This document shows, piece by piece, positions 6,081-10,800 of a stretch of DNA of 27,153 nt. The DNA lies in the IMG/VR virus record IMGVR_UViG_3300045789_000520, positions 1 to 27,153 of that record. One strand, given 5' to 3'. Below the pieces are notes generated by a model that was given only the letters and a program-made list of their open reading frames with translations, searched no databases and was not told the DNA's origin. This DNA is from a virus. Both the position numbers and the translations under genes were made by a program. Numbering within the stretch: the first letter of the stretch is position 1; each line of letters starts with the position of its first letter.

Positions 6081-6731
6081 CTACCTCAAGGTCTGGACCC
6101 ACTCAAACGACCCGCCTTCGCTGATATTTGAGCGGCTCGCGCCGTAGTTTGCTGATTTCAAAACGGCCTTCAGGACCGGGGTTCCGAGCGTCACAGAAGC
6201 GCCAATCGCGGCTCCGGGGCGGATCTTTGGCGTGACCTCGATGTCGGTGATCTCGCCGCCCAGGCTGGCGGTGCCGCCCGTGAAAATCCGGTGATAGGCA
6301 TAGCGGGTTGGGTTTGCCCCGTAGCTAAAGCCCAGCAAATCGCCCCGTTGCAGAACATACCCTTGTGGCAGGCCAGCGAGAGTCAGTTCCCGATTGTTGA
6401 CGGAAAGGGCCGAGATATAGGGCGAGGCCGCGCCCAGGATGACCTTGCCAGGGTCAGCAATCGGGCCGGTCATTCGGGGGTCGCAGAATAGAAAGGACGC
6501 GCCGGGATCTTCAAGAACGGAAAGAGCCGCTTCTATGTCGGCCCAGAAATCGTGGGCTTCAATGTCCAGGGTGATGCTGCCCTGCCAGAGCCGGGCACCG
6601 CGTTTATGGGGAATGATCGATCCGTCCGCGCCTTCGGTGGTCGTGACCGCGCGGCCGGGAAAGGACGTGACCTTTGCAATGGGCAAAAAGTCCATGAATT
6701 CAGAGGTGGGGAGGGGCCAGGTTGCGGGCAT
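6081..6731 (-). CDS. Distal tail / minor tail protein, 216 aa
   Basis: The ATG at 6731 overlaps the tape measure stop as TAATG, showing coupling. The product is soluble and beta-rich. It opens with MPATWPLPTSEFMDFLPI and includes aromatic segments typical of tail proteins. No enzyme motif is visible. The gene directly after a tape measure usually encodes the distal tail protein (Dit, lambda gpM or GTA orf12 equivalent), which forms a ring at the tube end and anchors the hub. That function is inferred from gene order only. About 10 percent glycine and few cysteines fit a structural ring protein. A role as another minor tail protein is possible. Confidence 0.6.
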   Translation of the reverse strand: MPATWPLPTSEFMDFLPIAKVTSFPGRAVTTTEGADGSIIPHKRGARLWQGSITLDIEAHDFWADIEAALSVLEDPGASFLFCDPRMTGPIADPGKVILGAASPYISALSVNNRELTLAGLPQGYVLQRGDLLGFSYGANPTRYAYHRIFTGGTASLGGEITDIEVTPKIRPGAAIGASVTLGTPVLKAVLKSANYGASRSNISEGGSFEWVQTLR

Positions 6732-9154
6732 TAGCCTATTCCATGTGGGTCGTTCAGGGCGCGTCGGGCGGTCTCGGGGGCGGTGTTGCGGTCGTAGTCT
6801 TGAAGACCCTCGACGGTGATCCTGCCTGAGACCTCTTCGACGTAGCTATGAAACAGAGGGCTTGGCTGGATCACGACGCGGGCGTAGGGGATTTCTCCCG
6901 CGCTGCCCGTGGCCGAGCTGTTCGCCCCAGTTGCCTTGCCTCCGGGGATTTCGCCGCCGCTCGCAAAGCCGGGGATTTCGACGCCGTCATTCATAGCCTG
7001 CAGGACAGGGCGGTACTTGCGAGTGGCCTTTGCGTGGACCACGGTTTCGCCTGGGGACAGCCAGGCCGGAACCTTGTCGTCGCGGTTGCCGCCGTCGCCG
7101 TGGACCGTCCCGATTCCGACGTGACCCTCAGCCAGGCCCAAGCCGCCGAGAAAAATGCCCACAAGGCCGCCGAGTTCGCCATCCTTACCACCCAGGCCGA
7201 AGAGATTGCCCAAGGGGCCACCACCCAGAAGGAGCGCTTCTAGGGCCGCAGCCGCGATGGATGCCTTAACTTTGTCCCAGGCGTCGGCGGCTTCTTCGCC
7301 GCCTCTTACCAAGCCTTCGGTCAAAGAGGTTACATTGTCGCGCAGATAGTCAGTTGCGGCCTCTGTCTGAGCAATAGCCTTTTCTTCTTTTAGGCGCTCG
7401 CGGATCAGGGCCTCTACCGCTTCGCGTTCTGCATCTGTCGCGTCCTTGAGCTGGTCGCGGATGCGAAGCATTTCTTTCAGAACTGGGTCCGTCTCACGCA
7501 GCACCGCTATACGCTGGCGTTCCCGTTCCATCAGCCGTTCGATGGCCTTGCGCTCTTTGTCGTATGCGCTGGCCGCGCCGCCGCCCTTGCGAGACCGTCG
7601 CGTTTTGGGGTTCGACGGCATATCGACGTCGGGCAAACCGTGGTCTTGGTAGACATAGTCGGAGTTGCCTGCGCCCCGGCTTTCGCCGCGAGGGTCTGCA
7701 AAGTCGGGGTTCTCCCGGATGCGCCCCATGATCTCCTGGCCGTTGGCCTTCATCATATTGACCATGAGGCGGTGTGCCTCATCAGCCGCCAGCGAAATGT
7801 TGCCCGCCATATCCGCCGAAGCGACGCCATTGGCCGCGTCCCAGGCTTCCAGCAATTCGTCTTTCAACTGTTCGGAAAGATCGCGGCTCTCAAGCTGCTG
7901 TTCATAGGCCATGCGCTCGGCCTGCAGACGCAGTTCTGCGACTTCCACGCTGCCTTCACCAAATACGGTGATCGCCTGCTGGGTTTCGGCCTCAAGGCGG
8001 AGCAGCTCAATCTGAGTACGGGCCTGGGTTTCGACCTGCAAGCGCTTTCTCAGGTAGGTTTCCACATTGCTTGAGAGGCTGGACCACAGATCGGCGCCGG
8101 TCGCCTTCAGCTCATTCCAGGGCGCTTGTAGGGCACCGGCGAACAGCTCCAGATCGCGGATGATGGCGCTCAGGCCTTCATAGAATTCTCGCTGAGTGCC
8201 GTTTAGGTTTTCCAGCCCGCCAGCCGCGCCCAGGAGCTGCTCGCGCACATCAAGGGCCGCTTTAAGGCGGGTGGCAGCGTCCTCATTGCTGTTCAGGAGT
8301 TCTAGGTTCTGTGCAAAAGCATAGCCGGCCTCTCGGGCTGAACTCCCGATAGATCCCAAGCCAAGAAAGTCTTGAGACGCAGACACCGAGGATCGTTCGT
8401 CCCAGTAGCTTAGATCGAGAACCAGATCGCGCACGCTCTTTGCTGTGCCGTCAATCGCTTTCTGAGCATCCATCTTGGCCAGGGCGGCCATATCCGCCAG
8501 CACCAGGCGGAGTTCTGGCGAGGCCTTGCCAAACTCTTCGATCATCTCGGCTGTGCTAAACCGGGTCTTAGAAGCTTTTTCCGCATAGGCATCGATGGCG
8601 TCACCAAGCGCCTCGAGCTGGTCTTCAAACGTGGCAATGTCTTCGTCTGCGCCGGTCAACCAGTTCACCAGGGCGGCACCGGCTGCGATGGAGCCGATGG
8701 TGATCAGGGTCAGGGGGCTGACCATGGAAACAAGCGCGGCTTTGAGGGCTTTGGCGGCACCGGCCGCGCCCATGTTGCCGATGACCTGGGTGATCTGGGT
8801 GCCCTGTTGGATGGCGAGCTGAAACGGGTTTTGGCCCGCTGCCATCATCACGCCGATATCGTTGAACTGGGCTGTGAGGTTGCCAACCTGACCGGCCGCC
8901 AGTTGGTGGGACCGGCCCATGGTGACGGCCTCATTGGCCACCCTGGTCTCAGTTGCGGAGAGGAGGCGGTTCTTTGCAGCGGCCATTTCGGCCTGCGCTG
9001 CCAGTTTCCGAACCCCAACCGCAGCCTTTGCTTCTTCTGCCGTCATGGTCTTGGTGGACGTGGCAACGGCATCTTTTGAGGCTTTGAGCTGCGATAGCTC
9101 AGATTTGCCCTGGGAGGCATCAATCGTCAGCTTTCCAGAGACAACAAAGGTCAT
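6731..9154 (-). CDS. Tail length tape measure protein, 807 aa
   Basis: The ATG at 9154 follows the stop of the frameshifted chaperone frame by one base. The N-terminal 120 residues are heptad-rich (ASKDAVATSTKTMTAEEAKA and later). Residues about 75-105 carry AAGQVGNLTAQFNDIGVMMA, a segment seen in many tape measure proteins. A hydrophobic stretch lies near 130-165. Long charged helices follow (about 180-640). The C terminus has a Gly-rich segment and LAEGHVGIGTVHGDGGNRDD / WLSPGETVVHAKATRKYRP, a common tape measure ending. The protein sets tail length and is ejected with the DNA. At about 0.15 nm per residue, 807 residues would predict a tail of roughly 120 nm; this rule is general knowledge, not measured here. 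Plus-strand frames here are shadows. Confidence 0.9.
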   Translation of the reverse strand: MTFVVSGKLTIDASQGKSELSQLKASKDAVATSTKTMTAEEAKAAVGVRKLAAQAEMAAAKNRLLSATETRVANEAVTMGRSHQLAAGQVGNLTAQFNDIGVMMAAGQNPFQLAIQQGTQITQVIGNMGAAGAAKALKAALVSMVSPLTLITIGSIAAGAALVNWLTGADEDIATFEDQLEALGDAIDAYAEKASKTRFSTAEMIEEFGKASPELRLVLADMAALAKMDAQKAIDGTAKSVRDLVLDLSYWDERSSVSASQDFLGLGSIGSSAREAGYAFAQNLELLNSNEDAATRLKAALDVREQLLGAAGGLENLNGTQREFYEGLSAIIRDLELFAGALQAPWNELKATGADLWSSLSSNVETYLRKRLQVETQARTQIELLRLEAETQQAITVFGEGSVEVAELRLQAERMAYEQQLESRDLSEQLKDELLEAWDAANGVASADMAGNISLAADEAHRLMVNMMKANGQEIMGRIRENPDFADPRGESRGAGNSDYVYQDHGLPDVDMPSNPKTRRSRKGGGAASAYDKERKAIERLMERERQRIAVLRETDPVLKEMLRIRDQLKDATDAEREAVEALIRERLKEEKAIAQTEAATDYLRDNVTSLTEGLVRGGEEAADAWDKVKASIAAAALEALLLGGGPLGNLFGLGGKDGELGGLVGIFLGGLGLAEGHVGIGTVHGDGGNRDDKVPAWLSPGETVVHAKATRKYRPVLQAMNDGVEIPGFASGGEIPGGKATGANSSATGSAGEIPYARVVIQPSPLFHSYVEEVSGRITVEGLQDYDRNTAPETARRALNDPHGIG

Positions 9155-9155
9155 T

Positions 9156-9841
9156 TCAGTTTCCGTTCCATTCGGCCAAAGCGCCGTGTTCGATGATCTG
9201 GACTTGGCCGAATAGTTCCGGGTTCATTGCTACTCCGGCCAAGTCCCAAGCGGCGCGGGCACCGCCGTAGTCAAGCCCAAGCGATCTGGTGCTGCCGTCT
9301 GCCAGGCCGATCCGCTTGAACTGTGTGGCCGCATCGAAGAAGGCCTCAACAGCGGGCAGGTTACATTCCCAGACGCCTTCGCTGTCTTCTGGCGGCGCGA
9401 GGCTGTCAGCAGGGATGCCGAGGACATCGCAGTCTTGAAGGGCCTCGGCCTGACGGTCCTCTTGGTTCCCGGTGAACAGGGTTCCATTGGCAAAGGCCCG
9501 CCCGGCCCAGGTTAGTTTCCCGTGACGGCCTTTATCTGGGCCTTGGTGTAGGTGGAGAGCAGTGCGATACGCACGTAACCAAAGCCAAGAATTTGCTCTA
9601 GGATCTCGGGGCCGTAGGGGACGGGCTGCCCCTCGTCGTCGGTCAGATCGTCCAGGTGCAGGATGATTTCGCGCAGATATGCTTTGACGTTTTCAGTGAC
9701 GGACAGATCGCGGGCATCACGTTCTTCGTCGGACAGAACCTGAAAAGTTGCCTTAAAGGACTGTTCAACATACCCGTCTCCAGAGGGAACGGAGACAGGT
9801 ACGTCGCGGGTGAAGGTCGGGGCGGTGACGACATTGAACAA
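9156..9841 (-). CDS. Tail assembly chaperone, -1 frameshift fusion (lambda gpG-T-like)
   Basis: The -1 frame entered at the slippery heptamer is open from the CTA at 9515 to the TGA at 9158-9156, giving 119 codons without a credible start of its own. It begins LTWAGRAFANGTLFTGNQED and contains WECNLPAVEAFFDAATQF and LGLDYGGARAAWDLAG. Joined to the 109 upstream residues it predicts a 228-residue G-T fusion. The T part would recruit tail tube subunits to the tape measure-chaperone complex, as in lambda. The extension ends one base before the tape measure ATG, leaving no spare DNA between genes. Without frameshifting, about 350 bases here would have no gene. A separate gene using a rare start is the alternative but no start with a ribosome site is seen. 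Confidence 0.8.
9512..9841 (-). CDS. Tail assembly chaperone, short form (lambda gpG-like)
   Basis: No ATG exists after the tail tube stop. The best start is TTG at 9841, with CTGGAG seven bases upstream. It gives a 109-residue protein beginning (M)FNVVTAPTFTRDVPVSV, with an FKATFQVLSDEE segment near residues 28-39 and an acidic helical C terminus. Size, placement between tail tube and tape measure, and the end at a GGGAAAC slippery heptamer just before TAA identify it as the lambda gpG equivalent. Such proteins coat the tape measure during tail assembly and are absent from the virion. A GTG/ATG start further upstream would lie inside the tail tube gene and is less likely. The start choice is the weakest point. 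Confidence 0.8.
   Translation of the reverse strand: MFNVVTAPTFTRDVPVSVPSGDGYVEQSFKATFQVLSDEERDARDLSVTENVKAYLREIILHLDDLTDDEGQPVPYGPEILEQILGFGYVRIALLSTYTKAQIKAVTGN
9515..9521 (-). promoter_or_regulatory. Programmed -1 ribosomal frameshift site GGGAAAC
   Basis: On the minus strand the zero frame reads ACG GGA AAC TAA. The heptamer G GGA AAC has the X XXY YYZ form (GGG, AAA, C) and differs from lambda's GGGAAAG only in the last base. It abuts the zero-frame stop. Slipping back by one base re-reads the C as the first base of CTA and continues in the frame that runs to 9156. A strong structure just downstream is not obvious; lambda also works without a well-defined one. Confidence 0.8.
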
Positions 9842-9864: not shown

Positions 9865-10800
9865 TTAGGTGAGAGTGAGGGACCACTGGGAGTTTACAGT
9901 GGCGGCACGGGGCACCAGCCGCAGGGGCCATTCCTTGATGTTCTGGCTCTGGCTGATGGAAGGCCGCTGCATCTGAGCAGTTGGCAAAGACAACGTGACG
10001 GTTTTCCCGGCTTCGGTGCCGTGGACCAATTCGACCGGCACCTGGGCCATGGCCAGGGCTTTTTGAAACGGGTCGTACTCGGCCAGGGTTTTGGCCTCTA
10101 CGGTGGCTTCAAACAGCTCTGATTTGTCGGTGATCAACACGCGCTCGGCTCCGACCAGGAACCGGTTTTCCAGCTTGTTGCCAAGGTTCAGCTTGGCGGT
10201 TTTCATAACGAAACCCACGCTGTCGATAGAGAATGTCGGGGTGTTTTGATGCGACACGACCAGCGGCTCTACCCAGCTCATCAAGTCGACAGTCGGCGGT
10301 GCCACATCGCTTGGCAGGGTAAACAGGCCGGTGAAATCGAACTTGATCTTGGGCGTCGCCTGGGCATCCAGCATCAGCTCGGCCTTGCCACGCGATCCGC
10401 GCATGACATAGCGGGTGCCGTCGATGTTGAGGTGGAATGTCCCGGCCTCATGGCCCTTGGCGACCGGCGTGTAGATGACGGAGGTTGCGGCGTTGGTTGT
10501 CTCGGCAACGGCGCAGGCGCGCAGCAGCGGCCCCCAGGCCGGCGCCGTCCCGGCAGCCCCGGAGGCGCTCAGATCCACGGTGAAGGACAGGGTGGAATGC
10601 AGCTCGGTAGGGATAGTGCCATTGGCACTCATGCCTGGCTGTTCCAGGTCACGTTCCTGGTCCTGACCTTCCATGGGCTTGTAAGTGACGTCCTGCGCCA
10701 GGATCGCATTGGCGGCGCCAGTGGGACCCGCGTCTTGGCCGTAGATGCCTTCCAGGGCAAACAGCAGGTACTTGTCTTTCCAGTAACGGGGAGCGGACAT
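9865..10800 (-). CDS. Major tail tube protein, 311 aa
   Basis: The ATG at 10800 has AGGAGG five bases upstream and directly follows the stop of the 48-residue gene. The protein opens MSAPRYWKDKYLLFALEGIY and contains ELHSTLSFTVDLSASGAAG and HLNIDGTRYVMRGSRGKAEL segments. This is the layout of siphovirus tube proteins with an immunoglobulin-like or beta-sandwich tube fold. Position two genes after the tail terminator and before the chaperone pair supports the call. It would polymerise around the tape measure to form a non-contractile tube. No sheath (Mu L) gene is present, which is the key sign that the tail is not Mu-like. Confidence 0.85.
   Translation of the reverse strand: MSAPRYWKDKYLLFALEGIYGQDAGPTGAANAILAQDVTYKPMEGQDQERDLEQPGMSANGTIPTELHSTLSFTVDLSASGAAGTAPAWGPLLRACAVAETTNAATSVIYTPVAKGHEAGTFHLNIDGTRYVMRGSRGKAELMLDAQATPKIKFDFTGLFTLPSDVAPPTVDLMSWVEPLVVSHQNTPTFSIDSVGFVMKTAKLNLGNKLENRFLVGAERVLITDKSELFEATVEAKTLAEYDPFQKALAMAQVPVELVHGTEAGKTVTLSLPTAQMQRPSISQSQNIKEWPLRLVPRAATVNSQWSLTLT

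Follow-up and report, generated by a model that had tools for sequence, protein, structure and literature searches.

The closest described system is the tail chaperone pair of Escherichia phage T1 (AY216660, CPTT1_038/039), the two frames of which lie ahead of the tape measure gene and match PHROG 569 and PHROG 680, and Pfam PF08748 and DUF1799, respectively, while PHROG 17368 covers both halves. The 0-frame ends in AAA AAC TAA, and in its GenBank entry the two frames are joined under the name 'tape measure chaperone, frameshift product'. A conserved frameshift in T1-like chaperones is also mentioned in the description of phage Stevie (PMC4319613), and in Burkholderia phage KL1 a GGGAAAC-stop site and a −1 fusion were predicted in 2012 (PMC3483164). 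In phage lambda, where a −1 frameshift before the tape measure gene yields G and GT, coating of the tape measure protein and recruitment of tail tube subunits are established; the slip site G_GGA_AAG, not GGGAAAC, is named as highly shift-prone in E. coli, where sites ending in G are described as the most shift-prone (PMC5009743). The mechanism has long been known in tailed phages, and the T1 annotation and KL1 prediction predate the present finding, which adds one more case of the known tail-chaperone frameshift.

The locus lies in a viral DNA stretch of 27,153 nucleotides (IMGVR_UViG_3300045789_000520), the whole of which is referred to here as the window. Judged from its sequence, the tail assembly chaperone gene almost certainly undergoes programmed −1 ribosomal frameshifting at GGGAAAC, with a predicted fusion product of 228 residues. 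The window shares with T1 the same two families (the same PHROGs) in the same order ahead of the tape measure gene, but GGGAAAC replaces AAAAAAC, and T1 is far diverged: its −1 domain gives no BLASTP match to that of the window and is 17% identical in alignment. KL1 gp18/gp19 have the same heptamer directly before the chaperone stop, although the C-terminal part is Phage_TAC_18 rather than DUF1799 and an extra gene precedes the KL1 tape measure gene. The original prediction likened the arrangement to lambda G/G-T. This holds for its placement, with the tail tube gene on one side and the tape measure gene on the other; the better comparator, however, is the T1/DUF1799 type with a stop abutting the slip site, as in Pfam and PHROGs the frames match T1-type families and no lambda G/T family. 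Of the systems described so far, the T1 chaperone pair (PF08748-PF08809), and not lambda G/T, comes nearest on these matches. The closest named relatives, Rhodovulum/Rhodobacter phages RS1/RC1 and Thiobacimonas phage vB_ThpS-P1, carry GGGAAAC TGA at the same place but are annotated with two hypothetical or tape-measure genes and no frameshift, and the vB_ThpS-P1 paper makes no mention of one (PMC5488378).

Two overlapping frames ahead of the tape measure gene

The 109-codon frame ending in ACG GGA AAC TAA, with its G GGA AAC heptamer, and the 119-codon −1 frame that stops one base (9155) before the tape measure ATG at 9154 lie on the minus strand exactly as originally predicted (Table 1). The −1 frame stays open from 9692 onward to its TGA, and a scan for ATG, GTG and TTG found none until TTG 9242, with just 28 codons left to the end of the frame, in agreement with the earlier view that it has no usable start. 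A search of both strands of the window found GGGAAAC a single time, compared with 4.8 copies expected from shuffles, and this sole copy is the chaperone junction, in the correct frame for slippage. An 87-codon TTG-started ORF (9230-9493, minus strand, frame 0, past the chaperone stop) is open but spurious, as the third-position substitutions of the −1 frame fall on its second codon positions; a gene caller could choose it over the DUF1799 frame.

Table 1. Features of the predicted chaperone locus and its neighbours (window coordinates).
Feature	Position	Strand	Details
Tail tube protein, upstream	9865..10800	−	PF18906 Phage_tube_2, E 1.5e-6
0-frame tail assembly chaperone (G-like), 109 aa	9512..9841	−	TTG start at 9841, GGAG upstream, TAA stop
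Slippery heptamer G GGA AAC, followed at once by TAA	9515..9521	−	Sequence; conservation in relatives
0-frame stop TAA, abutting the heptamer	9512..9514	−	Same adjacency in 52/56 relatives
−1-frame extension (T-like, DUF1799), without own start	9156..9515	−	119 codons, CTA 9515 to AAC 9159, then TGA 9158-9156
Predicted 228-residue frameshift fusion (G-T analogue)	9156..9841	−	Junction ...AVTGN-LTWAG...; frames and T1 precedent
Tape measure protein, downstream	6731..9154	−	PF06791 TMP_2, E 1e-17; PHROG 25241, E 2e-98

Elsewhere the window encodes Mu-type head proteins (portal, gpT, protease I, F-like and Gp36), together with GemA and an AAA/TniB-like ATPase. The head and tail genes indicate a phage with a Mu-like head and a siphophage-type tail, which is related to the Rhodobacteraceae phages RS1, RC1 and vB_ThpS-P1. 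A prophage of Phaeobacter sp. 11ANDIMAR09 (L091) is also among its close relatives. T1 is a lytic phage, and its head is not of the Mu type.

The 109-residue protein matches PHROG 569 (E 4e-9), which also takes in the T1 chaperone (E 4e-44), and is a predicted member of this T1-type tail chaperone group. A Pfam search did not report PF08748 (Phage_TAC_4) for the window protein; its relative in RS1 scored just above the cut-off. The AlphaFold model of the chaperone is confident (pLDDT 85), and comparison with an 87% identical relative (locus L012) gave dN 0.068 and dS 0.438. A further candidate relative of the upstream frame (L008) proved to be false. Another locus (L009) is ∼55-75% identical to the window upstream and 93-100% identical downstream, with a sharp switch ∼15 nt before the heptamer (window 9550-9500); this is a mosaic recombination joint almost at the slip site, at which the chaperone half was swapped and the DUF1799 half kept.

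The −1 frame matches Pfam DUF1799 (PF08809; E 7e-6, 26.6 bits against a curated cut-off of 26) and PHROG 680 (E 8.5e-15). When compared with its 79% identical counterpart in L012, 42 of the 71 substitutions lie at the frame's own third positions (p 7e-6), and dN (0.124) and dS (0.753) give a dN/dS of ∼0.16, showing that the frame evolves under purifying selection. The AlphaFold model of the domain has a pLDDT of 92.5, and its nearest predicted structures include tape measure chaperones of phages Shivani, F20, Solomon and Stubb, with TM ∼0.5 and weak E-values. Foldseek searches of the PDB returned no match at E ≤ 0.001 for either the chaperone or the −1 domain; among solved structures, ribosomal L20 was a chance hit for the −1 domain and the chaperone had none. 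The family matches, purifying selection and confident fold show that the −1 frame is a genuine part of the gene; a lack of conservation, named originally as an observation that would count against the frameshift, is not what the comparisons gave.

Conservation of the slip site

When viral and genome contigs were searched with a profile of the −1 domain, 110 loci were recovered; with phage records added and the window included there were 115, reduced to 56 after dropping those >90% identical. The original prediction had also held that loss of the heptamer in relatives would argue against it. GGGAAAC or AAAAAAC is kept in frame in all 56 non-redundant relatives, directly before the 0-frame stop in 52 of them (GGGAAAC in 29, AAAAAAC in 23). 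The remaining four (L033, L051, L058 and L080) are not heptamer-less, as GGGAAAC is present 8 codons ahead of the stop, bringing its total to 33/56. In these loci the 0-frame reads L/S-KAPRGIG past GGGAAAC, a natural variant without stop adjacency. An identical frame break in isolates, prophages and metagenomes bears on whether the window simply holds a single gene that has been degraded or mis-sequenced. A one-base change would indeed fuse the two frames, but the recurrence of the break in 56/56 relatives, together with purifying selection on both halves, makes a mutation or sequencing error extremely improbable, and the comparative data already refute such an origin.

The upstream proteins of the relatives are mostly only 12-45% identical to that of the window, and thus the slip site outlasts the protein. 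The codons that precede GGA vary (CTG, TTG, GAG, CAG, ACG, CCG, GCG, TCG and CGG) but their third base is always G, while those preceding AAA (GCA/AGA/CGA) always end in A, even though A is the rarest third base in these genes. Similarly, Gly at the site is encoded by GGA, whereas elsewhere in these genes GGC outnumbers GGA by 224 to 50 (∼4.5-fold). Conservation of the site therefore exceeds protein-level constraint, being complete across the 56 relatives with a preceding wobble base that tracks the heptamer type. By comparison, the family loci contain 344 further open frames that are 100 codons or longer; a GGGAAA/AAAAAA-type heptamer terminates none of them, and an XXXYYYZ sequence of any kind is found at the end of three.

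These patterns also bear on slippage by RNA polymerase rather than the ribosome. The A6 run of AAAAAAC in some relatives would suit transcriptional slippage, but the GGGAAAC of the window, shared by 33 of the 56 relatives, offers no long homopolymer, and the strictly kept codon phasing of both triplets is relevant to tRNA re-pairing and not to a polymerase; this origin of the −1 product has next to no likelihood.

DUF1799 could alternatively be a separate protein, made from a non-standard start codon or by re-initiation after the TAA at 9514-9512. Several relatives are annotated with two genes, the downstream start in RS1/RC1 coinciding with the upstream stop, and in the window CTG 9479 could leave a protein of 107 codons. 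The RS1/RC1 'start', however, is the CTG inside AACTGA, an annotation artefact rather than an independent start, and the window offers no ATG, GTG or TTG until 28 codons from the end of the frame. Re-initiation gives no reason for the G/A-GGA/AAA-AAC pattern with its matching wobble base in 56/56 loci. The heptamer is also kept in the four relatives whose stop lies 8 codons further on, and the first residues that the −1 frame encodes past the slip include a K and an L that never vary among aligned relatives. A separate protein is thus very improbable, and the search for a distinct start for the downstream frame, the other observation that was to tell against the original prediction, found none.

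The universality of the heptamer is qualified by more distant phages. Five Weberviruses (L123, L128, L129, L130 and L131) have A AAA GTT/GTC TAA at the chaperone stop, phiEB49 (L133) has A AAG GTC TAA and P85_2 (L132) has A AAG CAC TAA. In all of these the two frames still overlap and the stop is still adjacent, but the second slippery triplet is lacking. Distant DUF1799 phages without a full heptamer may, on the sequence of these sites, slip on a single tRNA.

Proposed frameshift and its signal

In the proposed programmed −1 frameshift, the majority of ribosomes would terminate at TAA to give the 109-residue chaperone, while a minority, when decoding GGA-AAC, would slip one base back, re-pair on GGG-AAA and read on to produce the 228-residue chaperone-DUF1799 fusion. 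If the roles are those known in lambda, the chaperone part would coat the tape measure protein, with the additional domain of the fusion recruiting the tail tube protein, such that a low ratio of fusion to chaperone sets up tail polymerisation. The frames, the slip site with its conservation, selection on the −1 frame and membership of the families are shown by the sequences; that ribosomes slip and the fusion is made, how efficiently, and what it does in assembly we infer. The terminal C of the GGGAAAC heptamer counts against the frameshift reading, as do the lack of a significant downstream RNA stem and the incomplete heptamer of some distant DUF1799 phages.

A downstream stimulatory stem was not significant in the window when folded as a single sequence (z −0.87), and z ranged from −1.66 to +1.56 in other relatives. 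An alignment of 13 sequences, analysed for nested stems, gave a consensus of only −1.4 kcal/mol, its 6 pairs all weak. Apart from the slip site, the stop abutting it was the one conserved element observed. It is conceivable, though we consider it unlikely, that the frameshift signal of the DUF1799 chaperone family includes this stop. If so, slow or competing termination at TAA/TGA would take the place of the RNA stem that is lacking and adjust the ratio of fusion to chaperone. Such a role would account for the stop adjacency in 52 of the 56 relatives, a heptamer that invariably ends in C, and the retention of the adjacent stop in Weberviruses and phiEB49 after loss of the second triplet.

The ribosome-binding sequence ahead of the tape measure ATG is weak (9154-9183, minus strand). 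In view of this, and of the −1-frame TGA one base away, termination of the frameshift product and translation of the tape measure protein could be coupled.

Annotation of DUF1799 genes

Given that DUF1799 in the window has no start of its own near the junction, standard gene callers will probably cut it short, place it wrongly or leave it out, as has happened in relatives; the expectation that automated annotation would miss the fusion is borne out by the deposited annotations of close relatives, which do so. Many phage records list DUF1799 as of 'unknown function' or as 'tape measure'; in general, however, the domain is the half of a tail chaperone that arises by frameshifting, and this correction is useful both for annotation and for anyone expressing such chaperones. 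PHROG 569, 680 and 17368 bear the label 'tail length tape measure protein', whereas the members considered here are tape measure chaperones; RefSeq phage records carry the same label.
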